Part shown: piece by piece, positions 1,982-28,802 of the stretch | How the letters are laid out: every line of letters begins with the position of its first letter | Position numbering within the stretch: position 1 is the first letter of the stretch | Position numbers and translations under genes: made by a program | The notes under the pieces: generated by a model | The model's input: only the letters and a program-made list of their open reading frames with translations | Databases searched by the model: none | Told to the model about the DNA's origin: nothing | Source of the DNA: a virus | Virus record (IMG/VR): IMGVR_UViG_3300033571_005902 | Span: 1-31,792 of that record | DNA length: 31,792 bases | Reading direction: 5' to 3' (one strand)

Positions 1982-2790
1982 AAATAAACTTTGAATTAGA
2001 CGACCAGAAATGGACTATTGATCAGATTAAAATTCGTGACTACTACCAGATCAAAACGGATCTGTTATTAGATGACACGAATTCTCGTTATCACATTATC
2101 TCTGTCTTAAGTGGTTGTCCGATTGAGATCTTAAGAGATTTCACTCTCTCTTCTTGGAACGAGATTTGGCAGAATCTAGAATTAATGATTCAAGTGGAAA
2201 TGTTTAACCACCAAGAGGTGGTACACCAGTTCACACACGACGGTGTGGAGTATGGTTTACTTGATTTTGATAAGATGACGATTGGAGAGTTTGCAGATCT
2301 AGATGTGATTATCTCAGATCCCAACGCTGATTCTCGTATTCATGAAATTCTAGCTGTCTTATATCGTCCAATTACAGGTCGCAAGTGGAAAAAGAACATT
2401 GTAGAGAAATACGACTATGACGGATTTAAACACCGTTCAGAATTATTCATGGATTTAAGTATCGGTAGAGCACGTGCAGTTAGTGGTTTTTTTTTGGCTA
2501 TCGCACGAGCATCCTTAAGAACTACGCCAATCTATTTGAAATCCCCGAAGAAGATACAGAGGATGATGGAGAAAGAGGCCCAAACCATGTTGCAAAAGGG
2601 TGGTACGGCACTCTCATCGGATTGGCCGGCGATAATCCTCTCGAAGTTTCAAGAGCTTCAGAACTTGGAGTCCGAGAAGCCTTCAACTTCCTTGCCTATC
2701 GCCGAGACGCGATTAAACGTGCTGAAGAAGAAAATAAACAAGTGGCTCAAAAATATAACACGCAAAGATGATAACTCAAGTCTACTTTAG
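1978..2790 (+). CDS. Tail-assembly chaperone, zero-frame product
   Basis: 270 aa read without a shift. The first 172 residues look like the tail-assembly chaperones of Bacteroidota phages: an N-terminal beta region (MKINFELDDQKWTIDQIKI), then YGLLDFDKMTIGEFADLD (about residues 92-109) and a helical segment around LAVLYRPITGRKW. Such chaperones coat the tape measure before the tube polymerises. Codons 170-173 are GGT TTT TTT TTG, within a run of nine T (2487-2495). After it the zero frame continues for about 99 codons into a less convincing, lysine-rich tail and overlaps the next gene by 23 nt. The -1 frame opens exactly here (see the next entry). The first part is secure; which frame is the genuine C-terminus is open. 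Confidence 0.75.
   Translation: MKINFELDDQKWTIDQIKIRDYYQIKTDLLLDDTNSRYHIISVLSGCPIEILRDFTLSSWNEIWQNLELMIQVEMFNHQEVVHQFTHDGVEYGLLDFDKMTIGEFADLDVIISDPNADSRIHEILAVLYRPITGRKWKKNIVEKYDYDGFKHRSELFMDLSIGRARAVSGFFLAIARASLRTTPIYLKSPKKIQRMMEKEAQTMLQKGGTALSSDWPAIILSKFQELQNLESEKPSTSLPIAETRLNVLKKKINKWLKNITRKDDNSSLL
2487..2495 (+). other. T9 slippery run, candidate -1 frameshift site
   Basis: Nine consecutive T between GG and GG. In the zero frame the codons are GGT TTT TTT TTG, giving two overlapping X-XXY-YYZ heptamers (T TTT TTT and T TTT TTG). The -1 frame has a TAG stop at 2481-2483, immediately upstream, and is then open to 2771. The run could support ribosomal frameshifting or transcriptional slippage, or be a homopolymer-length error (T10 would fuse the frames). 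Confidence 0.65.
2493..2771 (+). CDS. Tail-assembly chaperone, -1 frame C-terminal extension
   Basis: About 92 codons in the -1 frame relative to the chaperone gene, entered at the T9 run. The joined product would be about 264 aa. This frame reads as an ordinary soluble protein: YANLFEIPEEDTEDD, then GWYGTLIGLAGDNPLEV, SELGVREAFNFLAYRRD and a charged terminal helix KRAEEENKQVAQKY. The W-led helix followed by FLAY-RD resembles the C-terminal part of tail chaperones. Its TGA (2769-2771) overlaps the ATG of the next gene as ATGA, the usual coupling in this operon, whereas the zero frame overruns by 23 nt. In many long-tailed phages the chaperone is made in two forms by frameshifting (the lambda gpG/gpGT principle). 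There is no independent start codon, so expression requires the slip or a sequence correction. Confidence 0.65.
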   Translation, partial: FGYRTSILKNYANLFEIPEEDTEDDGERGPNHVAKGWYGTLIGLAGDNPLEVSRASELGVREAFNFLAYRRDAIKRAEEENKQVAQKYNTQR

Positions 2791-4321
2791 ACCCAAATTT
2801 TACTCGGCAGGATATAACCCTGTTATCTGGTCAGTGGAATCTGACAAGGTAGAAGAGGTTGATTTTAAATTCGTGTTTGACATTTATGTTGATGGAGTTT
2901 ATGTTAACCGTATCAAGCAAAGACCTAATCCACAAGGTGCAGGTCTGATTGATCTGAGTGTACTTCTAAATGCTTATTTAGATCCCACCCGTTTTGCCAA
3001 TGAAACAGGTACTCCTACTTCGACTCCGTTGAAGATTGGAGAATTTGCTTCTTGTTCTGTGTTCATGTATGTTGGGGAAGAGTACCGCGTTGGTGCTTAT
3101 CCTTCTCCGTTAAGAATTTATACCGGAACTGCTAACACAGTTGGTACACCAAGTTATTATCTGGGTGCGCAAGGATATTCAAATAGACCTGTTATAGCAC
3201 TTCCAATTTCTTTAGATTGGAAAGATCAGCAACAGACTTTAGCGGTGCAACAGTCAAACGATAACGACTATTACGGACTGTTTGGTGCGTTAGCACCATA
3301 TGTTCTAAAGAGTAATGCAATTTATAGCGCCTCCACCTGCGGTGGAGTTGGTAAATTCCTTTCCTATATGCCACGCACAGTGGCAGGCGGAGCATGGCAG
3401 ACAACACCAGCAAGTCCTAGTAAGAACTTTACAGCCAAAGACCTAATTTATGACAGACACACGTTAACATTTCTTAACCGTAATCCTGTCTACCAATACA
3501 AACAAGTAAGTGCAACGTTTCCTTATTTGCAAGCGTCATCACCTAAAGTGGTATGGTATGAATTTTATAACGCAGATAACGAAAGCATTGGACACTATGC
3601 TATTTCGAATTCAGAGAATTTTGGTGGCGGACCTCGTCCAGATTGCGGAGATCCTATTGTAGATTTCGATCAAGAGACTAATCAAGAACTAGTTTCTGTA
3701 CGTGTCGGTCCAAAAGACCTAGATGATATGGGCGTTTTAGATGCTTTACCAGAACTACCAGCTTATTACACAGTGCAATTATTCGCTAATTTAACTATTG
3801 CAGGTAACTGTACTTACTCTGGTGAACCAACTAATCCACTTTCTGAGATTGTGACAATCCAATTAACAGAAGATTGCTACTCGTATTTATACCCGAGAGC
3901 ACGTTTAGTGTGGCTGAATCCACTTGGTGGTAGAGAATACTGGAACTTTGACATGAAAGTTGAAGAGACAGTAGAGGCAGAGAATGCAGAATTCTATCAG
4001 ACAGAAGTAGATTGGAGTGGTACAACTCCTGTAACTCTAATGGGAGACTCTACTCTTAACTGGTTAAGAGGTGGTATGCAACAGTACAACAAAACAACTC
4101 ATACCAAATACACTATCACTTCTAATTTCTTGACCCAAGAAGAAGTAGAATTGTTAAAGACTGCAGTGATGAGTCCGCAACAATGGGTTTATATCGGACA
4201 AGAAGACTGGCCTTATACTTGTACTATTGCTCAGAAAGAATTCACGGTTAAGAGTATTAAACAAGTTAAATTATTTACTGCAACATTTGAAATTGAATTA
4301 GCAGTAGATCGCACAATGTAA
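2768..4321 (+). CDS. Large tail structural protein (distal-tail candidate)
   Basis: 517 aa, rich in beta-type sequence, with no signal peptide or membrane segment. The N-terminus (MITQVYFRPKFYSAGYNPVIW) and the C-terminal block (FLTQEEVELLKTAVMSPQQW, then a Lys/Thr-rich strand ending FEIELA) resemble proteins encoded beside the tail hub in Bacteroidota phages. A few cysteines are scattered in the middle. The ATG overlaps the TGA of the -1 chaperone frame (ATGA). It sits between the chaperone and the giant hub-like protein, so a tail-tip or distal-tail role is the best guess from context. I cannot name a family. Confidence 0.6.
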   Translation: MITQVYFRPKFYSAGYNPVIWSVESDKVEEVDFKFVFDIYVDGVYVNRIKQRPNPQGAGLIDLSVLLNAYLDPTRFANETGTPTSTPLKIGEFASCSVFMYVGEEYRVGAYPSPLRIYTGTANTVGTPSYYLGAQGYSNRPVIALPISLDWKDQQQTLAVQQSNDNDYYGLFGALAPYVLKSNAIYSASTCGGVGKFLSYMPRTVAGGAWQTTPASPSKNFTAKDLIYDRHTLTFLNRNPVYQYKQVSATFPYLQASSPKVVWYEFYNADNESIGHYAISNSENFGGGPRPDCGDPIVDFDQETNQELVSVRVGPKDLDDMGVLDALPELPAYYTVQLFANLTIAGNCTYSGEPTNPLSEIVTIQLTEDCYSYLYPRARLVWLNPLGGREYWNFDMKVEETVEAENAEFYQTEVDWSGTTPVTLMGDSTLNWLRGGMQQYNKTTHTKYTITSNFLTQEEVELLKTAVMSPQQWVYIGQEDWPYTCTIAQKEFTVKSIKQVKLFTATFEIELAVDRTM

Positions 4322-9120: not shown

Positions 9121-11442
9121 ATGGCTACAAAACCTAAAGTAGGAGCAGATACCTCGGAAGCGGAAGGCGCGTTTATTAAACTCCAGTTACAAATCCGAAA
9201 AGCGCAAGTTGCTATGCAAGAAGCACAAGCTACTGGCGATAAGATAAAATTTGCAAGTGCAAAAGCACAATTAGACGAGTTAAATGATTCGTTAGAACTT
9301 ACCACTTTAAAAAGTATGCAACTGGATGATGCACTTGCTGCTCAACCAGGTGTTGTAGGACAGGTTGGTAATGCAATGAAAGGTTTAGATGCAACATTTA
9401 AATCTTTTCTTGCTAATCCTTTTGTCGTAACACTAACCCTTATTGTAGGTGCATTCATGGCACTTAAAGAAGCTTTAAGTCGTACTGAAGAAGGACAAGC
9501 AAAACTAACTAAAGTCTCTGAAGGCTTTACAAAAATTCTAAACGGTCTTTTTGCAGTTCTAGAACCAATTGCTAATCTCTTTATTGATTTAGTAATTAGT
9601 CTAATGGAGAACGACAAGTTCATGAAAGGTCTAACCAAAACAGTTGGTGTACTTTCTGGAACGTTTGGTGCTTTATTTGCGGTTGTTAAGAATTTAGTTT
9701 TTTTAATTGGTGATCAGTTAGTAAACGTATTTAAAACTTTAGTAAATGTTGCAACAGGAGCTGGTAAAGTTCTTAAAGGTGTATTTACATTAGATTGGGA
9801 TGCTATTAAAGAAGGTGCTGCACAGGTTACAGACGGTATTAAAGAAGGATTTAATAATACTGCTAAGAATGTTAAGAATTTTGCAGTTAACACAGTAAAT
9901 GATGTAGTTACTGGTTATAAAGAAGCATCTGCATCAGCAGAAAAATCATTTACAGAAGGAAGTAAAAGGTTAACAGACAAAGAGAAGAAAGATAAAGAAG
10001 AAAGAGATAAAAGAAATAAAGAGGCTGCGGATAAAGCTAAAAAAGACGCACAAGATTTAATTAACACTAATGAACAGCTTCAACAGTCTAATGATGAACT
10101 TGCAGAATCACAACGTAAGAAATCAGAAAGCACAATTCAAGCTTTACAAGACGAGCAAGCTTACAAAGATAAAGAATACGCTAGAGAACAGAAGAGATTA
10201 ACTGATTTAATGGCTCTTGAAAAAGAAGGGTCAAATGAATACAAAGCTTTACTTGCACAAAAAGCAGATTTAGAATCAAAATACAATAACGATAAGACTG
10301 CTAGAGATGCTAAGTTATCAGAAGAGCAAAAAAAGAAAGCAGAAGAAGATAAGAAGTTAGCAGACGAAACTGCCAAAGCCTTAGCAGTTACTGAAAAACA
10401 AAAATACGATTTAGCTTTAGCTGAAAGCGATAAATTTTATAACGACTTAATTGCTAAGAATAAAGGTAACGAAGAAGCTATAACTGCATTAAAAAAAGCA
10501 CAGGCAGAAAAAGCTTTAGAAATTACTAACGATTATAACGAAAAGGTTTATAACGCTAAGAAAGAAGCTCTCGAAAAAGAACAAGGTTTAATTGTTGGAG
10601 ACATCGAAAGAGGTCTTGCAACAATGCAAGAAAAACGCATTAGAGATTTTGACGGCGAGAAAGAATTCTTAGACAAGAAGGCGGTTGCAATGAACGAATC
10701 TTTTGCAAAGCAATTAGAAGCTGCAAAAGGTAATGCTGACGAAGAAAAAAGAATTACAGGTGCACAAACAGATTTTAATGCTAAAATTGCAGAAACGAAT
10801 AAAGCAATTGATGCAGATCAATATGGATTTAAGAGACAACAATTAAGTGAAGCTGGTAATTCAATTGGACAATTATCTGAATTAGTTGGAAAAGATACAG
10901 TAGCTGGTAAAGCATTAGGAATTGCACAAGCAACAATCAATACCTATCAAGGGGTAACAGAAGCATTAAAACAAAAATCTACTTTACCTTCACCTTTCGA
11001 TGTAGTTGCTAAAGTTATTAACGTGGCAACTATTCTTGCTTCTGGTTTTAAAGCAGTTAAATCTATTACCGCAGTTCAAGTACCCACTGCACCAGCAGCA
11101 CAAGGTCCAGCAGCACCACAAGGAAGTAAATTTGCTAAAGGTGGTATACTAGTAGGACCTTCTCACGGGGAAGGAGGAATTAAATCTCCATATGGAGAAC
11201 TAGAAGGTGGTGAATTTGTAGTTAACAAAAGATCTACTAGATCTTTCTTACCTATGTTAAATGCTATTAACTCTGTAGGCAATAGAAAATACGCAGACGG
11301 AGGAGTAACACCAAGTATGGAAGCACTACAAGGAATGATGGCAAGTCAACCTACTCCAGTAGTTAAAACTTATGTGGTAGCGTCAGATGTAGCATCACAA
11401 GCTGAAGCAGATGCTAAAATTGCAAGACTAGCACGTCTATAA
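9121..11442 (+). CDS. Tail tape measure protein
   Basis: 773 aa. A tape measure sets tail length and is released on infection. An N-terminal helical region is followed by hydrophobic stretches (about residues 93-120, LANPFVVTLTLIVGAFMALK; and about 140-215), typical of tape measures. A very long charged coiled coil follows (about 275-560, rich in Lys/Glu/Ala). A second hydrophobic segment lies near 600-645. The C-terminal Gly-rich motif FAKGGILVGPSHGEGGI (from residue 671) leads to EGGEFVVNKRST, a strong hallmark of tape measures. At roughly 1.5 angstrom per residue the length implies a tail near 0.11-0.12 micrometre (rule of thumb). It is separated from its chaperone by three large genes, unlike the usual adjacency. 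Confidence 0.88.
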   Translation: MATKPKVGADTSEAEGAFIKLQLQIRKAQVAMQEAQATGDKIKFASAKAQLDELNDSLELTTLKSMQLDDALAAQPGVVGQVGNAMKGLDATFKSFLANPFVVTLTLIVGAFMALKEALSRTEEGQAKLTKVSEGFTKILNGLFAVLEPIANLFIDLVISLMENDKFMKGLTKTVGVLSGTFGALFAVVKNLVFLIGDQLVNVFKTLVNVATGAGKVLKGVFTLDWDAIKEGAAQVTDGIKEGFNNTAKNVKNFAVNTVNDVVTGYKEASASAEKSFTEGSKRLTDKEKKDKEERDKRNKEAADKAKKDAQDLINTNEQLQQSNDELAESQRKKSESTIQALQDEQAYKDKEYAREQKRLTDLMALEKEGSNEYKALLAQKADLESKYNNDKTARDAKLSEEQKKKAEEDKKLADETAKALAVTEKQKYDLALAESDKFYNDLIAKNKGNEEAITALKKAQAEKALEITNDYNEKVYNAKKEALEKEQGLIVGDIERGLATMQEKRIRDFDGEKEFLDKKAVAMNESFAKQLEAAKGNADEEKRITGAQTDFNAKIAETNKAIDADQYGFKRQQLSEAGNSIGQLSELVGKDTVAGKALGIAQATINTYQGVTEALKQKSTLPSPFDVVAKVINVATILASGFKAVKSITAVQVPTAPAAQGPAAPQGSKFAKGGILVGPSHGEGGIKSPYGELEGGEFVVNKRSTRSFLPMLNAINSVGNRKYADGGVTPSMEALQGMMASQPTPVVKTYVVASDVASQAEADAKIARLARL

Positions 11443-14530: not shown

Positions 14531-14562
14531 AAAGAGTGTGATTGAAACATATCACACTCTTT
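14531..14562 (+). terminator. Terminator after the capsid gene
   Basis: A perfect 12-bp stem, AAAGAGTGTGAT (14531-14542) with ATCACACTCTTT (14551-14562), and an 8-nt loop. A-rich flanks stand on both sides, so it may act in both directions. The U-tract is short (part of the stem's TTT), so read-through into the next gene is possible, consistent with no clear promoter between them. Confidence 0.75.
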
Positions 14563-14589
14563 AAAAAACAAATAATAAAAAAACATCAT

Positions 14590-15141
14590 ATGAGCTGTTT
14601 AATCCAATATGGCCTCCCACTAGATTGCATCGATAGTATAGCGGGAATTAAGGGTAGCATCTATATCGGCGCAGATGTTGATTTTGGTACATTAACTGAA
14701 TCCTCTACAGCAGGATCAGTATCTTTGATCACTGCTGCAAGCGGTGATTCTGGAGAAATGTATGAGTTTGTAGTTGCTAAAAACACTGCAAGCTTTACAG
14801 AAACTTTCAACATTAGCAATGAAAATGGAACTGCTTTTTTCGATCAGGCCCTTTCACTAAATATACAAAAAATGGAAGCAAACAAGCGTAACGCTTTGCT
14901 TCTAGTAGCCCGCAATAGAAACCTTAAGTTTATCTTCGAAGATAACAACGGTAAATATTGGTTGGGTGGTTTAACAAGAGGTGCAGTAGTTTCTGCTGGT
15001 ACTTCTGTAACAGGAACTGCGCCTGGAGATCTTCAGGGGTATACCTTGACTTTGAGCGCGCAAGAACCGGCCATGGCCTACCAAATTGCTGATACACCGG
15101 AAACAGTTTTCACTGGAATCGACTTTATCGCAGCACCGTAA
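14590..15141 (+). CDS. Probable major tail tube protein
   Basis: 184 aa from ATG 14590. An in-frame TTG at 14542 lies inside the terminator hairpin and is rejected as the start. The sequence has the features of tail tube proteins from Bacteroidota phages: SFTETFNISNENGTAFFDQ, the helix-strand block LSLNIQKMEANKRNALLLVA, then FIFEDNNGKYWLGG and a final GYTLTLSAQEPAMAYQI. Tube proteins form stacked hexameric rings around the tape measure. It sits just after the capsid gene and is followed by an unusual hairpin and a terminator, suggesting separate high-level expression. It is 5 kb from the tape measure and 12 kb from the tail chaperone, an uncommon separation. Confidence 0.75.
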   Translation: MSCLIQYGLPLDCIDSIAGIKGSIYIGADVDFGTLTESSTAGSVSLITAASGDSGEMYEFVVAKNTASFTETFNISNENGTAFFDQALSLNIQKMEANKRNALLLVARNRNLKFIFEDNNGKYWLGGLTRGAVVSAGTSVTGTAPGDLQGYTLTLSAQEPAMAYQIADTPETVFTGIDFIAAP

Positions 15142-15294: not shown

Positions 15295-18200
15295 ATGGCT
15301 ACATCTACAGTAAAAATAGGAACGGGTTCATCCGAAGGCGGTCAAATAACCATCAGTACTAGTGGTACTGGAGGTAACGGAACTCCATCAACCGGTTACG
15401 GTTCCATTTATTATGGTACAGATAAACAGTTACGTCTAATCGACGACACTGGTGCTATTACAGTTTTTGGTGCAGGTGGTGGTACATCAGGTGGTTCTGG
15501 TAGTTCAGGTTCGTCAGGTACGTCTGGAACGAGAGGAGCTGCAGGAACGTCTGGTACTTCGGGTGCTAACGGATCTGTAGGTTCGTCTGGTCAATCAGGT
15601 TCGTCAGGTAGCTCAGGTTCGTCTGGACAGAATGGTACATCAGGTAGCTCAGGAGTTAATGGAAGTTCAGGAAGTTCAGGAACGTCAGGTGCTACCTCTA
15701 TTTTTGTAGGTACGTCAACAAGTTCTTTTAACGTTTCTAATGGTACTAAAACTTTCACTACACAATTAGGTTTAAATTTCACTGTTGGACAAACAGTTTC
15801 TATAGCATACGACGGAACAAACTTTATGGTTGGTGTGATTCAAAGTTATCTTCCTAATACAGGAGCGTTAACTGTGAGTGTTACATATCACGAAGGTTCT
15901 GGAACTTATAATGCATGGAATATTGCTGTTAGTTCAATTCCTGGTACGTCAGGTAGTTCAGGTTCTTCAGGAAGCACAGGTTCTTCAGGCTCGTCTGGCT
16001 TAAGTGGTAGTGCAGGATCGTCTGGTAGTTCTGGTCAAGATGGAACTGCAGGAACGTCAGGTGCTACATTTGGAACATCTGGTACGTCAGGTGTGAATGG
16101 TAGTTCAGGCGCATCAGGAACAGCAGGAACGTCAGGTGTTTCTAACCTATCTGCTAACTGGTATGGTTTTTTTGCTAACACTACTGATCCTCTTACTGTT
16201 GGAACAACCGGGCAAATGATTGCTTGGCCTACAACTGTTACAAGTAGTGGAATCACAGTACAAAGTACTTCTCAAGTAAGAGTATCGAACACTGCAGTTT
16301 ATGAAATGATATTCAATACTGGGTATTTTTCTGGAGCAAGTTCTTCGACTTTAACTGTAGAATTCTATAGAAATGGTTCACAGTTAACCGGGAGTCAAAC
16401 AGTTTTTCAATCCCCAGGTAACCAAAATGCTTACGGTGGGGTTGCTCCTTTTATTGCTAGTTTAAATGCTAATGATTACATAGAAGTTCGAGTATGGGCT
16501 AGTGTTGGTGGAGGTTCGCTTAATCGTGTTAATCTTTTTGGTTCTCCTGGTTATACTGCTTGGTTACAGATCAAACAGATCTCACAAACTGGAGGTACAT
16601 CAGGAACATCAGGAGGTACAGGTACGTCAGGAACGTCTGGTCAGAATGGAACGTCAGGTTCGTCTGGTCAGAACGGAACATCAGGTTCATCTGGTAATTC
16701 AGGAACTGCAGGTACGTCAGGTACTTCAGGCAGTTCAGGTACGTCAGGTACTAGAGGAAGTTCAGGTTCTTCAGGAAGCACAGGTACTTCGGGCAGTTCA
16801 GGTACGTCAGGTACTAGAGGAAGTTCAGGTTCTTCAGGAAGTACAGGTACGTCAGGTAGTTCAGGAAGCACAGGTACGTCAGGCAGTTCAGGTACGTCAG
16901 GCACAAGAGGTAGTTCAGGTTCATCAGGTACGTCGGGTAACAATGGAACATCGGGTTCGTCTGGACAGAATGGAACATCGGGTTCATCTGGACAGAATGG
17001 GTCATCAGGTACTTCAGGAAGCTCGGGTACGTCGGGTGTTAATGGTTTAGGATTAAGTGCTAAATCTGGATCAATCTACGGAACATCCGGTTGGGGATTT
17101 GATGCAGGATTAGGAAGATGGCAATATCAATTAGTTTTTGCTGTACCATTTGGTTCAGACAATTTTACTTCTTATGCTACTCTTTGGCCAGGTGGACATA
17201 GTTCATATGACACTAACGATCCATTTACTTTCATCTACCAAACTGCAAGTGGTCTTTTATTAATTGCAGATGTTGGTCAAGTACCACAAGCAAGTTGGAG
17301 AGTAGATTGGAGTGCAATAGCAAATGGCGAAACTGGAGTACCAGGCACGTCAGGTACGTCAGGTTTATCCGGAACATCAGGTAGATCTGGTGGTCCACTA
17401 AACTCTACATTTGTAGGTAACACACCAGCAGAAGTATTTTTAAATCTATCTGCAGGATCTAATCAGCAAATGGGTGGATGTGGTACTTCTGGCTGGACTA
17501 TTACTCCAATCAGTGAAGGTAAAGTACAGATAACTGTAGATGGTACAGTAGATAATTCAGCTGCACAACAGTACATTCAATTAGCTTACGGCACAGGTAC
17601 ACCACCAGCAAAAGGCGCAGCAGGTACTGGAAGTAGTATTGGTACATCTATTAATTTTTATAATAGTGCTACAAGTTACAATCTTCCTTTCTCTTTAACT
17701 GCTATTGTTAGCGGTTTAACAGTTGGAACACAATATTGGTTTGACGTTATTGTTACAGGTAATAATACGACACAAACTTCAAAATTATACAATCTATCAT
17801 TTAATGGATTAGAACTTTCTGGATATGCTGGAACGTCAGGAACGTCAGGTACTAGAGGTAGCTCAGGTTCATCAGGTTCTTCCGGTAGCACAGGTTCGTC
17901 AGGTTCAGCTGGAACGTCTGGTCAGACTTTTGGAACAAGTGGAACATCTGGAAGCACAGGTTCGTCAGGAAGTACTGGTAGTTCAGGTTCATCAGGAAGC
18001 TCAGGTAGCACAGGTTCGTCAGGTACATCTGGAAGTTCAGGTAATAACGGATTTAATGGATCTTCAGGTAGTTCAGGAACGTCTGGTACGTCTGCACCCG
18101 GAACACCAGGTTCTTCAGGAAGTTCTGGTGTGAACGGAACATCTGGTACTTCAGGTAGCAGAGGAACATCCGGAACATCCGGTCAGAATGGTAGTTCAGG

Positions 18201-19635
18201 AACTGCAGGTACGTCTATGAAATTTATAGGAACTTGGAGCGGTTCTGCTAGTTACATTCTTGGTGACGTAGTTTATTATGCTGGTGCTTCTTGGGGATGT
18301 ATTTTTCCCGCTTTTCCTGGCGATCAACCTCCTACTCTTAATCCTACTAGTTGGAATATAGTTGCAGCACAAGGAGTTCAAGGTCCCGCAGGTACTAACG
18401 GAACAGCAGGTTCATCAGGTAGAAGTGGAACAGCAGGAACATCAGGTACGTCAAGCGCAGGAACACCAGGAACTGCAGGAACATCGGGTACTTCAAGTGC
18501 TGGATCTCCAGGTTCTTCAGGAACGTCAGGTGTTAACGGAAGTCCAGGAACGTCAGGTACTTCAAGTAATGGATCACCAGGAACTTCAGGAACGTCAGGT
18601 AATTCAATTACAGTTTCTAACAACACAAACAACTACGTTACAACTGCTACCGGTGGTTTTAATATTAACGGGGAACAAAACCTACAGTTCGACGGAACAA
18701 CATTAACACTTAGCAACACATTAGGTATTGCATCTGCTTCTGGTAATTTATCATTAGCAGGTCCTACAGTTGATTCTGGTGGTGCTATCACACATAAAAT
18801 GCCTGTTGTAATTAACGGTACAACTTATTATATGCTATTACAAGAAGCAACTCCATCTTATTCTTACACACAATTTATTCAAATAAATGTAACAACAATT
18901 GGTTACATTAAGTACTATAAGCAAGGCGTTGGAACGGTTTACTATTTCGTTCCTATTACCGGTAACTTCTTTATTTCTGATTGCTCTGCAGTGTCTACAT
19001 TAGCACCAGGTATTCCGTTTGCACAAGTAGCAGATTTTACAATTGTAAATTCAGGTATTACTTGTACTGGAAGTAATTACAGACAGAACGTTTCAATTGA
19101 CGTAACAGAAACTGGTTATATTAAATACGATAAATTAGGTGTTGGTACTATACTATTCTATGTAGGTTCTACAGGTAACCAAACTCTATCTGATTGTTTA
19201 GATCCTGCAACATTAGAATATGGTTATCCAACTTCTGATCCAGCAGTATTCACTATTAATAACTACGGTTCAGCATGTGGCGGTACACCACCTCCAACTC
19301 CACCATCAGGTGATATTATTGGAGTAGGTGGTTATATGCAACCATGTATCGGAGGCACTATCGACGACTTTATGGGAGCGTCAGTAACTATTAATACAAC
19401 TTATGAAGTAGATTCAGAGTTTGGCGTCAATGTTAGCTACACAAGTATTGGTGCAAGTTGCGGAAGTGGAACTAGTACTCAATCATTCACAGTAACAATA
19501 CCTGCAGGATCTTTTTCAAGTAACTTCGATGCTTGCTTATACGGAGCATATTTCCCAAGTGGTGCACAAATATGCGGAGCATGTATTACAAGCTGTGATA
19601 ACGCATCAATAGATTTAACCGGATATACTTGCTAA
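15295..19635 (+). CDS. Collagen-like modular tail fibre 1
   Basis: 1446 aa. An anchor-like N-terminus (1-60, containing GYGSIYYGTDKQLRLI and ITVFG) is followed by Gly-X-Y tracts of the GSSGTSG type with globular inserts between them. The inserts are: a beta domain (about 133-215); a C1q/TNF-like jelly roll (about 283-432, ending PGYTAWLQIKQI); a third domain (about 583-682); a fourth (about 700-845); and a CBM5/12-like sugar-binding module (about 973-1032, with YILGDVVYYAGASWGCI and PPTLNPTSWNI). The C-terminal part (1103-1446) has two tandem copies of a roughly 70-aa domain, a PPPTPP linker and a cysteine-rich end. The triplets are nearly free of proline, unlike animal collagen. Function: trimeric fibre for host or surface binding. 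It is first in a five-gene cassette. Confidence 0.82.
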   Translation: MATSTVKIGTGSSEGGQITISTSGTGGNGTPSTGYGSIYYGTDKQLRLIDDTGAITVFGAGGGTSGGSGSSGSSGTSGTRGAAGTSGTSGANGSVGSSGQSGSSGSSGSSGQNGTSGSSGVNGSSGSSGTSGATSIFVGTSTSSFNVSNGTKTFTTQLGLNFTVGQTVSIAYDGTNFMVGVIQSYLPNTGALTVSVTYHEGSGTYNAWNIAVSSIPGTSGSSGSSGSTGSSGSSGLSGSAGSSGSSGQDGTAGTSGATFGTSGTSGVNGSSGASGTAGTSGVSNLSANWYGFFANTTDPLTVGTTGQMIAWPTTVTSSGITVQSTSQVRVSNTAVYEMIFNTGYFSGASSSTLTVEFYRNGSQLTGSQTVFQSPGNQNAYGGVAPFIASLNANDYIEVRVWASVGGGSLNRVNLFGSPGYTAWLQIKQISQTGGTSGTSGGTGTSGTSGQNGTSGSSGQNGTSGSSGNSGTAGTSGTSGSSGTSGTRGSSGSSGSTGTSGSSGTSGTRGSSGSSGSTGTSGSSGSTGTSGSSGTSGTRGSSGSSGTSGNNGTSGSSGQNGTSGSSGQNGSSGTSGSSGTSGVNGLGLSAKSGSIYGTSGWGFDAGLGRWQYQLVFAVPFGSDNFTSYATLWPGGHSSYDTNDPFTFIYQTASGLLLIADVGQVPQASWRVDWSAIANGETGVPGTSGTSGLSGTSGRSGGPLNSTFVGNTPAEVFLNLSAGSNQQMGGCGTSGWTITPISEGKVQITVDGTVDNSAAQQYIQLAYGTGTPPAKGAAGTGSSIGTSINFYNSATSYNLPFSLTAIVSGLTVGTQYWFDVIVTGNNTTQTSKLYNLSFNGLELSGYAGTSGTSGTRGSSGSSGSSGSTGSSGSAGTSGQTFGTSGTSGSTGSSGSTGSSGSSGSSGSTGSSGTSGSSGNNGFNGSSGSSGTSGTSAPGTPGSSGSSGVNGTSGTSGSRGTSGTSGQNGSSGTAGTSMKFIGTWSGSASYILGDVVYYAGASWGCIFPAFPGDQPPTLNPTSWNIVAAQGVQGPAGTNGTAGSSGRSGTAGTSGTSSAGTPGTAGTSGTSSAGSPGSSGTSGVNGSPGTSGTSSNGSPGTSGTSGNSITVSNNTNNYVTTATGGFNINGEQNLQFDGTTLTLSNTLGIASASGNLSLAGPTVDSGGAITHKMPVVINGTTYYMLLQEATPSYSYTQFIQINVTTIGYIKYYKQGVGTVYYFVPITGNFFISDCSAVSTLAPGIPFAQVADFTIVNSGITCTGSNYRQNVSIDVTETGYIKYDKLGVGTILFYVGSTGNQTLSDCLDPATLEYGYPTSDPAVFTINNYGSACGGTPPPTPPSGDIIGVGGYMQPCIGGTIDDFMGASVTINTTYEVDSEFGVNVSYTSIGASCGSGTSTQSFTVTIPAGSFSSNFDACLYGAYFPSGAQICGACITSCDNASIDLTGYTC
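15475..18600 (+). repeat. Interrupted Gly-X-Y coding repeats of fibre 1
   Basis: Six blocks of 9-nt-type repeats (GG-acg/agt/tca, encoding GTS or GSS) lie at about 15475-15690, 15943-16140, 16594-17040, 17344-17390, 17833-18210 and 18391-18600. Within the third block a 63-nt unit starting ACTAGAGG (16750-16812) is repeated from 16813, where the unit is 90 nt, and again in part from 16903. Such near-identical copies favour length change by recombination. Confidence 0.85.
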
Positions 19636-20203: not shown

Positions 20204-20515
20204 ATGGCAGGAGGACACTTAAAACTAGAAGAGAACGGATTTATAACATTTGGTATTTCAAACGCAACGCCTGAAACACCAGATCAATATTATGTTTCTG
20301 TATTCGCGCAAAACAACGCAATTAAGTTCGTAAATTCAGTAGATGAAGTTTATGAGTTAGGTGTTGCAGGTCAGGTGCCTTCTGACACAACAGCAAATAT
20401 TTTAGCTATAGCAGATCCAGTAGCAGGCATGATAAGATACTCAACAGACGATCAAGTTATGGCTTTTTACGATGGATCTGATTGGATTAAATTACAAAAT
20501 AACGGAACATTATAA
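20204..20515 (+). CDS. Short protein sharing the fibre N-terminal anchor
   Basis: 103 aa. The N-terminal half (HLKLEENGFITFGI, then QYYVSVFAQNNAIKFVNS) matches in layout the first 50 residues of the next gene (GKLRIDGAGEIQFGEN, GYVSLYSQNGVLKAQNSSG) and the start of fibre 1. The C-terminal half (AGMIRYSTDDQVMAFYDGSDW) is a motif common in phage tail-fibre ends. It therefore looks like a fibre without a shaft: an anchor plus a small distal domain. Its stop overlaps the ATG of fibre 2 (TAATG), suggesting coupled translation. It may be a short fibre or a plug at an unoccupied attachment point. Confidence 0.6.
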   Translation: MAGGHLKLEENGFITFGISNATPETPDQYYVSVFAQNNAIKFVNSVDEVYELGVAGQVPSDTTANILAIADPVAGMIRYSTDDQVMAFYDGSDWIKLQNNGTL

Positions 20516-22290
20516 TGGGTACAGGTAAATTAAGAATAGACGGAGCCGGTGAAATACAGTTCGGAGAAAATCCTTCAAACCCGCCTGCGCCCGATTTTGG
20601 ATATGTAAGTTTGTATTCACAAAACGGAGTACTAAAAGCACAGAACAGTTCAGGACAAATTACTGTTTTTGGATCATCTGGTAGTTCAGGTAGTTCTGGA
20701 AATTCTGGAACCAATGGTACATCAGGTCAGTCTGGAACGTCAGGTCAGTCTGGAACATCTGGTAGTTCAGGAGTGTCAGGTAATAATGGAACTTCAGGAA
20801 CGTCAGGAGGAACTGGTAGTTCAGGCACGTCAGGTCAGAACGGAACATCAGGTTCGTCAGGACAATCAGGTTCTTCCGGTAGTTCTGGAAATTCTGGAAC
20901 TAATGGAACATCAGGTCAATCTGGAACATCAGGTTCTTCAGGTAGTTCAGGAGTGTCCGGAAGTGCAGGAACGTCTGGTAGTTCAGGTCAGTCTGGTTCA
21001 GTTTACTATTCTACTTCTACTACTTCTTTAACATTAGGTAATGGTACGCAGACTTTAATAGTTGCTACTGGTTTACAGTTTACGCCAACCCAAGACGTAA
21101 CAATTCTATATCCACCAGATCCTTTAAGTTATAATATGACTGGTGTAATTGCTGGTTATGATTCTAACGACGGAGAATTAATTGTCAATGTTTACCAAAC
21201 AGTTGGAACAGGTACATTTGCAAACTGGATCGTTAACTTAGATGGTGCAGTTGGAGCAGCAGGAAGTTCAGGTACGTCAGGTGCTAACGGAACGAGTGGA
21301 ACCAGTGGTGGTGCAGGTGTTGCAGGAACCTCAGGAACGTCAGGACAGAACGGAACAAGCGGAACTAGTGGAGAGAATGGAACAAGCGGACAGAACGGAA
21401 CTAGTGGTACGTCAGGTACAGATGGTAGTTCTGGACAGAGTGGAACAAGCGGAACAAGCGGAGTATCTGGTTCGTCTGGAACCAGCGGTGCGTCGGGACA
21501 ATCTTCTTCTTTATTTCCTTACAATGCAAGAACAAATATTACTTCAGGAAATCCTGGTAACACAAATATAATTTGGAACAATGCTACTCAAGCGTCTGCA
21601 ACCCAAATTAATATATCGCATTTAGATCGTAACAATGAAGATATTGATGTTTTTTTAGCTTTAATTCAATCAGGCACAAAAGTTATTATTCAAGATGCAA
21701 ACAATTCTACCCAATATCAAGTTTGGACTTTCGGTGCAGGAACTGAAGTAGGACCAAATTCATATTGGGAATTCCCAGTAACATTTGTATCAAGTACTTT
21801 TAGTTTTACTGGCGGTGAAAATATTCTACTAATCATTGCATCACAACCATCCGGTACTTCAGGAAGTAGCGGAACATCCGGTCAAAACGGAACATCCGGT
21901 CAAAACGGAACATCTGGAACGTCAGGTACCTCACAATCAGGTCTAAACTACACAGCAGTATTTTCTGGTAGTGGAGCAGTCATTACACCCGGTGTTATTA
22001 CGTACATACGTGCTCCTAGAACGAGTACAATTACCAAAGTAACATTACTAGCTGATCAAGTTGGAAGTGCTGTCTTAGACATCTATAAGGATAGCTACGC
22101 AAACTTCCCACCGAACTCAGCAGATTCAATTTGTGGATCTTCTAAACCGACACTAAGTTCTGCAAACAAATATGAAGACTCTACTTTGTCAACTTGGACA
22201 ACCAGTATCACAGCAGGTGATGTAATAGGATTCACATTGGATTCTTGCTCTACAATTACTCAGATAACATTACAATTAGAAACAGCATAA
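20515..22290 (+). CDS. Collagen-like modular tail fibre 2
   Basis: 591 aa. An anchor (1-53) resembles the previous protein. Gly-X-Y tracts lie at about 54-162, 243-326 and 447-475. Between them are globular domain A (about 163-242), a visible paralogue of the first insert of fibre 1 (TST-S, NGT-T, GL-FT, GVI, then G-GT---W in the same order), and domain B (about 327-446). A roughly 115-aa C-terminal domain (from about 476, with SGLNYTAVFSGSGAVI and two cysteines) is the probable receptor-binding tip. No trimerisation or autoprotease motif was recognised. It starts in a TAATG overlap and ends 1 nt before the spike-like gene. Confidence 0.8.
   Translation: MGTGKLRIDGAGEIQFGENPSNPPAPDFGYVSLYSQNGVLKAQNSSGQITVFGSSGSSGSSGNSGTNGTSGQSGTSGQSGTSGSSGVSGNNGTSGTSGGTGSSGTSGQNGTSGSSGQSGSSGSSGNSGTNGTSGQSGTSGSSGSSGVSGSAGTSGSSGQSGSVYYSTSTTSLTLGNGTQTLIVATGLQFTPTQDVTILYPPDPLSYNMTGVIAGYDSNDGELIVNVYQTVGTGTFANWIVNLDGAVGAAGSSGTSGANGTSGTSGGAGVAGTSGTSGQNGTSGTSGENGTSGQNGTSGTSGTDGSSGQSGTSGTSGVSGSSGTSGASGQSSSLFPYNARTNITSGNPGNTNIIWNNATQASATQINISHLDRNNEDIDVFLALIQSGTKVIIQDANNSTQYQVWTFGAGTEVGPNSYWEFPVTFVSSTFSFTGGENILLIIASQPSGTSGSSGTSGQNGTSGQNGTSGTSGTSQSGLNYTAVFSGSGAVITPGVITYIRAPRTSTITKVTLLADQVGSAVLDIYKDSYANFPPNSADSICGSSKPTLSSANKYEDSTLSTWTTSITAGDVIGFTLDSCSTITQITLQLETA
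20673..21940 (+). repeat. Interrupted Gly-X-Y coding repeats of fibre 2
   Basis: Three repeat blocks at about 20673-21000, 21241-21495 and 21851-21940. A segment encoding GNSGTNGTSGQSGTSG occurs twice (about 20697 and 20886) with few base differences, pointing to recent internal duplication. AGT/AGC-rich triplets dominate the second block, whereas TCA/TCT dominate the first. Confidence 0.8.
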
Positions 22291-27035: not shown

Positions 27036-27070
27036 AAAGTCTGGCCTACATATAAGCCAGACTTTTTTTT
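27036..27070 (+). terminator. Terminator at the end of the structural region
   Basis: AAAGTCTGGC (27036-27045) pairs perfectly with GCCAGACTTT (27056-27065) around a 10-nt loop and runs into T8 (27063-27070). This separates the portal/connector unit from the HNH gene row. Confidence 0.88.
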
Positions 27071-27139: not shown

Positions 27140-27628
27140 ATGGAAAAAGAACAATGGAAAGACATTAGAGGCTATGAAGGCCTTTACCAAATCTCAGATC
27201 ACGGCAACGTAAAGTCTTTTGTCATAGACAAGTACGAAGGCCGACTCCTTAGACCTAAGACTACAGTCCAAGGTTATAAAGCTGTCCTATTCAATGACAG
27301 AAGCCAACATCTGGTTCACAGATTAGTTGGAAAAGCATTTGTACCTAACCCATTCGGTTACAAAGAGATAGACCATATTTCAAATGTGAAAACCGAGAAT
27401 CATTACAAAAATCTTCAGTGGACTTGTAGCCGAGACAATGTTCAGAAAGACCAAGCAGATTCTATTCTCTGCTCTCACGAAACTGGTAAAGAGTTTATAG
27501 TTGCTGGTACGAGAGCAGCTTCTGAAGCGACATCATGTTGGAGAGGATCAGTGATCTATAGTCTAAAGCATGGTACGGTTAGTAGAAGTGGTTGGAAGTT
27601 TACTCTTATAAAAAAATCAAACGTATAA
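27140..27628 (+). CDS. HNH homing-endonuclease-like protein 1 (NUMOD4-HNH)
   Basis: 162 aa. It starts with the NUMOD4 motif (EQWKDIRGYEGLYQISDHGN, residues 4-23), a DNA-binding module of homing endonucleases. The HNH core follows: HRLVGKAF (about 55-62), then EIDHISN and NLQW with NV after it. The central H of the metal-binding motif and the terminal N are in place, so catalysis is plausible. The C-terminal part (AGTRAASEATSCWRGSVIYS) looks like a NUMOD1-type helix-turn-helix. These are mobile nicking or cutting enzymes that spread into phage genomes. It is first of three such genes, separated by 1 nt from the next. Confidence 0.85.
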   Translation: MEKEQWKDIRGYEGLYQISDHGNVKSFVIDKYEGRLLRPKTTVQGYKAVLFNDRSQHLVHRLVGKAFVPNPFGYKEIDHISNVKTENHYKNLQWTCSRDNVQKDQADSILCSHETGKEFIVAGTRAASEATSCWRGSVIYSLKHGTVSRSGWKFTLIKKSNV

Positions 27629-27629
27629 T

Positions 27630-28268
27630 ATGGAACAAGAAGTATGGAAGACAACAGTAGAAAGTGATCTCTATGAAGTATCTAATTGGGGTAATGTTCG
27701 CCACGTCGAAAGAAAGAAAAACCTAGTAACAGATAAGAAACATGCAAGTGGTTATCTTTTTTGGACTAGAAAACTAAACAATAAAAATCTTAATTCTTAC
27801 GTACATCGCACTGTATATCAAGCATTTGTAGGTTCTATACCAGAAAAAGGACAGATTGATCATCTAGATTTTAACCCACATAATTGTAGACTTGATAATT
27901 TAATTTTGTCTACACCTGGGAGTAACCTACAAAGATCAAGAGATGCTGGAAGATTTAAAAATGCAAATTTAAAACATTCTAAAATAATGAAAGAAAAATG
28001 GGCTAATGGATTTAAAATAGAATTAAGTGAAGAAGCACGTAAAAGTATAGGAGCTCATACAAGAGAAAGAATTAAACTTAATGGGCATCCGCTTAAAGGA
28101 AGAACCGGATTTAAGAATCCATTATTTAATTTTACATCTGAACTTTTAATTCAAATCCGAGAAGATAGAGCAAATGGTTTTACCTATGCTAAATTGTGTG
28201 AAAAATATAATAGATCACACTCATCAATCTGGAATGTTTGCCACGGAAAATACAAACATTTAATATAA
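27630..28268 (+). CDS. HNH homing-endonuclease-like protein 2
   Basis: 212 aa. A degenerate NUMOD4 start (EQEVWKTTVESDLYEVSNWG) is followed by the HNH core (VHRTVYQAFVG, then QIDHLDFNPHNCRLDNLILS). The H-x(n)-DH-x(n)-DN-x-x-NL pattern is complete. A basic middle contains repeated Lys-rich segments (KNANLKHSKIMKEKW). The C-terminal HTH-like end is LLIQIREDRANGFTYAKLCE with YNRSHSSIWNVCHGKY, which resembles a resolvase-type recognition helix. Compared with neighbour 1 the protein is about 50 aa longer because of the linker. It is probably a DNA-cutting selfish gene or a site-specific regulator. Confidence 0.82.
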   Translation: MEQEVWKTTVESDLYEVSNWGNVRHVERKKNLVTDKKHASGYLFWTRKLNNKNLNSYVHRTVYQAFVGSIPEKGQIDHLDFNPHNCRLDNLILSTPGSNLQRSRDAGRFKNANLKHSKIMKEKWANGFKIELSEEARKSIGAHTRERIKLNGHPLKGRTGFKNPLFNFTSELLIQIREDRANGFTYAKLCEKYNRSHSSIWNVCHGKYKHLI

Positions 28269-28277
28269 CTAAACACA

Positions 28278-28802
28278 ATGGAAGAAGTATGGAAGCAACA
28301 CGAGGAATACCCTCACGTAGAATTTTCTAACATGGGCAATGTCCGTAAACTATTACAAAATGGAGAATACAAAACTTACAGTCAGACACACTGCAGTGCA
28401 CAGCCTTACAAACAAGTTAATGTTAAAGCAGGCAAAAAACTGTATACACACAGAGAGGTCTGTAAATTATTTAATTATAATCCAGATCCTACAAAATACA
28501 CACATGTCTTGCACAATAACAACGATAGCCATGATAATCGAGCAGAGAATCTTCGCTGGGGAGATCAGAAACTTAATATGCAAGATCGGTTGGAGGCAGG
28601 ACATTATAGTAGAGGATTTGGACATAACATGGCCAAACTCACTAACCTCGATATCTTTGCAATTAGATGGCTATGGATACACCGAGCAGCAACCCAAAGA
28701 GAGATTGCTTCTTACTTTGGAATAAAACAGTGTACTATTTCATTCATCACAACAGGCAGAAGCTGGAAACATTTATTAAGAGAAGGCAGAATAGAAGAAT
28801 AA
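28278..28802 (+). CDS. HNH homing-endonuclease-like protein 3 with HTH
   Basis: 174 aa. The N-terminus (MEEVWKQHEEYPHVEFSNMG) is a shortened NUMOD4-like start. The HNH region is HREVCKLFNYNPD, then VLHNNNDSHDNRAENLRWG and NMQDRL. A leucine replaces the usual D of the DH pair (VLH), and the rest of the motif is kept; activity may be reduced. The C-terminal HTH (TQREIASYFGIKQCTISFI) is clean. The gene starts 9 nt after neighbour 2 and ends 3 nt before the winged-helix gene, so it appears embedded in an operon. Confidence 0.8.
   Translation: MEEVWKQHEEYPHVEFSNMGNVRKLLQNGEYKTYSQTHCSAQPYKQVNVKAGKKLYTHREVCKLFNYNPDPTKYTHVLHNNNDSHDNRAENLRWGDQKLNMQDRLEAGHYSRGFGHNMAKLTNLDIFAIRWLWIHRAATQREIASYFGIKQCTISFITTGRSWKHLLREGRIEE

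Follow-up and report, generated by a model that had tools for sequence, protein, structure and literature searches.

The stretch of DNA analysed here (the window) comprises 31,792 nucleotides of IMG/VR virus record IMGVR_UViG_3300033571_005902, a phage that encodes TerL, a portal, and a tape measure protein. An open reading frame at 1978-2790, on the plus strand like its downstream neighbour and the tape measure and candidate tube protein genes described below, reads GGT TTT TTT TTG GCT through a run of nine T's (T9) at 2487-2495, which is the only A/T run of at least nine nucleotides in the window. Upstream of this run, positions 1978-2486 encode an N-terminal domain of ~170 aa that resembles a tail-assembly chaperone, would be common to both predicted isoforms, and is conserved in every homologue. 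Downstream, the zero frame continues into a 98-aa C-terminal tail (2494-2790), which overlaps almost fully with a 92-aa C-terminal domain in the -1 frame (2493-2771) that can only be reached by a shift. As the original prediction had described, the -1 frame carries a TAG at 2481-2483 and is then open until a TGA at 2769-2771, which overlaps the ATG (2768) of the next gene (2768-4321) as ATGA, while the zero frame overruns this ATG by 23 nt. The near-equal lengths of the two outcomes noted there also hold, with 264 aa for the composite product entering the -1 frame and 270 aa for the zero-frame product. Within the T run, a putative slip site, an X XXY YYZ heptamer is present in the zero frame (T TTT TTT at 2487-2493), with U UUU UUG as another site in tandem.

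The gene sits within the structural gene set of its phage. A tape measure protein, the client one would expect for a tail chaperone, is also encoded (9121-11442; PHROGs tape measure, E 6e-9), although that gene is not immediately downstream of the chaperone-like one. In L242, a distant homologue in which both domains are fused, the fused gene is flanked by relatives of window positions 14542-15141 and 1093-1575; the former, whose homologue stands directly before the fused gene (26% identity, pairwise E 2e-6), is a candidate tail tube protein. The N- and C-terminal parts were modelled apart. The N-terminal domain gave a model of good confidence for which the HK97 chaperone 2ob9 was the first among the matches listed (Z 3.7 over 75 residues; Foldseek E 6.1), a score too low to show homology, and confidence was poor for the -1-frame domain (pLDDT 55) and below 50 for the zero-frame tail. 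The gene has no sequence-family match to known chaperone families: searches of Pfam, PHROGs, and PDB sequences yielded no named tail-chaperone family, with no hit in the PDB profile search and nothing meaningful in Pfam. A search for the tape measure in eight related contigs found one and is uninformative, since many of these contigs are fragments. A tail-assembly-chaperone identity is therefore likely, not proven, and the name given in the original prediction draws on the genomic surroundings and on a fold match of low score.

The joining of this gene to the -1 frame is supported: both T9 and the -1-frame C-terminal domain recur in relatives. Two closer IMG/VR relatives (74% amino acid identity) carry the exact GG-T9-GG at the same place. 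A profile search retrieved 309 further IMG/VR relatives, most of them sharing some 25-30% identity with the window protein; 80 were kept, and in all 79 readable junctions GG-T9-G was found with the -1 frame continuing into the C-terminal domain. Searching with the C-terminal domain gave 56 new loci, partly on the same contigs as the 79-locus set, again with GG-T9-G in 56/56. From another branch, 207 relatives were obtained, and the 80 kept comprised 68 with T9, 10 with T10, one cut at T8 by the contig end, and one ending before the junction. Altogether, the junction is T9, or T10 in 10 loci, in 158 readable IMG/VR loci (some contigs counted twice), with the -1 frame carrying the C-terminal domain. 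L034, L190, and L219 run into the ends of their contigs and do not count as exceptions. No uncut junction in the IMG/VR sets has 7 or 8 T's, and no non-T heptamer was seen. Because the searches used peptide patterns or protein profiles, these sets were not selected for the T run. Beyond IMG/VR, T9 occurs in the cultured Nonlabens phages P12024L and P12024S and in five bacterial genomes, G001 (Flavobacterium), G205, G216, G465, and G807. In INPHARED, tblastn with the window protein or its N-terminal domain gave no match, and profile search A10 in viral_contigs returned no conserved stretch. A DNA pattern search for T9, biased by construction and kept out of the counts, picked up a divergent branch (L235/L239) with T9 and the -1-frame domain, plus three unrelated matches.

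Distant homologues provide a natural control. In L242, L243, and L245-L254, which belong to the same taxonomic order as G465, both domains lie in one open frame, so the -1-frame domain is a real continuation of the gene. Those junctions that were read have no long T run (e.g. GGC TTT TTT ATA GAA) and retain a similar hydrophobic stretch without the need of a shift, indicating that T9 tracks the need for a shift and not the Phe-Phe motif. Relatives conserving only the zero-frame C-terminus, the pattern that would speak against the join, were not what we found, given that the fused relatives carry the -1-frame domain. These fused, non-frameshifted homologues sit in bacterial genomes, where they may be part of prophages or of other tail-like elements.

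Conservation is stronger in the -1 than in the zero frame. Together with the homology of the -1 frame to the C-terminal domain of fused relatives, this leaves almost no room for a zero-frame product as the sole real one with a chance ORF in the -1 frame, even though the zero frame is uninterrupted and open beyond chance. The zero-frame tail nonetheless does not look like junk and appears to be under selection as well. When the -1 frame is recoded synonymously, the window's zero frame stays open across the whole domain with P ~0.0003; 54/90 of its residues are identical in L002, where simulation gives 38-41 (sd 4). Synonymous differences in the marine clade fall to 0.23 in the overlap, compared with 0.37 before and 0.48 after it. 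Among 52 representatives, the zero frame is open longer than expected (Wilcoxon p 6e-10; mean percentile 0.86), and closure comes sooner in the +1 frame, after a median of 2 codons against 5.6 expected; the rows of both the marine-clade and the 52-representative tests are phylogenetically related, so the p-values serve as guides only. An open zero frame with early +1 closure would be expected of a gene whose mRNAs come in all three frames.

The same data bear on a homopolymer miscount, raised in the original prediction, whereby the true run would be T10 and the gene one continuous -1-frame fusion. The nearly equal product lengths and the existence of shift-free fused homologues fit such an error. 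However, the exact T9 recurs in independent assemblies, being found in the two close relatives, at well over 100 loci, and in two cultured phages; the T10 loci still require a shift; and both frames, including the zero frame, are under selection. A sequencing error is practically excluded on these grounds.

What slips is a finer question. The run occupies all three codon phases (0, 1, and 2), and the two in-frame TTT (Phe-Phe) codons are preceded and followed by (1,2), (2,1), (3,0), or (2,2) T's, with nine layout changes on the 52-row tree and a total constant at 9 or 10. The T's on either side of Phe-Phe therefore compensate, and only the total run length is kept. A ribosomal U_UUU_UUU heptamer requires only seven in-frame T's. 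Conservation of T9/T10 in three codon positions suggests that RNA polymerase, and not the ribosome, slips, with the qualification that extra T conservation may partly reflect coding constraints in two frames. In many bacterial genomes, selection against A/T runs, attributed to polymerase slippage, begins at nine nucleotides (PMC1088944), and in E. coli ribosomes shift less readily on U_UUU_UUU than on A_AAA_AAG (PMC5009743).

The same two proteins could arise from a uniform mRNA if ribosomes underwent a programmed -1 frameshift at U_UUU_UUU in the way known from lambda-type tail chaperones; we regard this as possible but rather doubtful. The architecture is shared with lambda G/GT, and T9 offers a usable heptamer in every codon phase, a point that also limits the slippage reading; the window has the tandem U UUU UUG in addition. 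Folding of four sequences revealed no downstream RNA structure of unusual stability (z-scores -0.95 to 1.25, pseudoknots being outside the model); this counts weakly against a ribosomal shift, because shift sites of tailed phages often lack stimulators (PMC5009743) and low-level -1 shifting there is often structure-free. The ribosomal account, however, leaves unexplained the constant length of 9-10 with a varying codon register and the absence of 7-8 T runs and non-T heptamers, and it does not predict the early closure of the +1 frame. Between the two options that the original prediction had left open, the comparative data make transcriptional slippage more likely than a ribosomal -1 shift, short of proof.

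Our comparative analysis supports a conserved T9 site and selection acting on both frames, and we infer that the slipping is transcriptional. Polymerase slippage is probably the mechanism by which the chaperone-like gene (1978-2790) makes two isoforms through T9, in the manner of lambda G/GT. RNA polymerase would slip at T9, where an rU:dA hybrid forms, so that a share of the mRNAs gains one U or loses two. Translated in the standard way, these slipped mRNAs would yield the 264-aa product that ends in the conserved -1-frame domain, unslipped mRNAs would encode the 270-aa zero-frame protein, and slips in the opposite direction would produce a protein ending within a few codons. By analogy with lambda, the common part may bind the tape measure, and recruitment of the tube protein may fall to the shifted domain. 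More broadly, we see an even chance that this is an ancient family of phage tail chaperones whose isoform ratio is determined by polymerase slippage at an invariant T9/T10, with ~90 codons here dual-coded into C-terminal domains of near-equal length.

Recoding in tail chaperones is a textbook case of ribosomal frameshifting, and transcriptional slippage, too, has known examples. Like lambda G/GT (Xu et al. 2004, as described in PMC5009743), the window gene has two overlapping frames, a common N-terminal domain, and a conserved -1 change, which in lambda lies near the end of G, and both phages encode a tape measure protein. Here, however, an invariant T9/T10, which may fall in any codon phase, takes the place of a codon-registered heptamer as the slip site, and in the window the unshifted protein is no shorter than the shifted one (270 vs 264 aa). 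An A/T homopolymer of at least nine nucleotides joining two coding frames, found at the junction of all readable split homologues, is also a feature of Shigella mxiE (a run of U), Thermus dnaX (A9), and Citrobacter tssM (A11) (PMC1088944, PMC4256274). Those are bacterial genes, whereas here the gene belongs to a phage, the run is kept across very divergent phages, and slippage is predicted. Phages P12024L and P12024S of Nonlabens (Persicivirga) have a homologous gene with T9 and the -1-frame domain, annotated in P12024L as two hypothetical proteins (AFM54760/AFM54761); they differ from the window in a protein identity of only ~22%, a zero-frame tail of only ~24 codons, and a run in codon phase 1. 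Open-access papers yielded no description of such a T9 site in a tail chaperone, and an earlier mention elsewhere is possible. Relative to the papers searched, the new elements are the invariant T9/T10 across very divergent phages and, in the window lineage, the almost complete overlap of the two C-termini. If the slippage account is true, the transcribing polymerase would determine the isoform ratio in a large phage family, and the cultured P12024 phages would offer a directly testable system. For annotation, the two frames at T9/T10 should be merged in genes of this family.

Elsewhere in the window, 15295-19635 and 20515-22290 each encode a large protein with abundant G-T-S-G/S-S-G repeats, probably a collagen-like fibre protein in both cases. 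The second-longest A/T run of the window, a T8 at 27063-27070, falls outside the listed ORFs (at least 60 aa), between 26874 and 27140, and is followed at 27140-28802 by three consecutive ORFs resembling HNH-type homing endonucleases.
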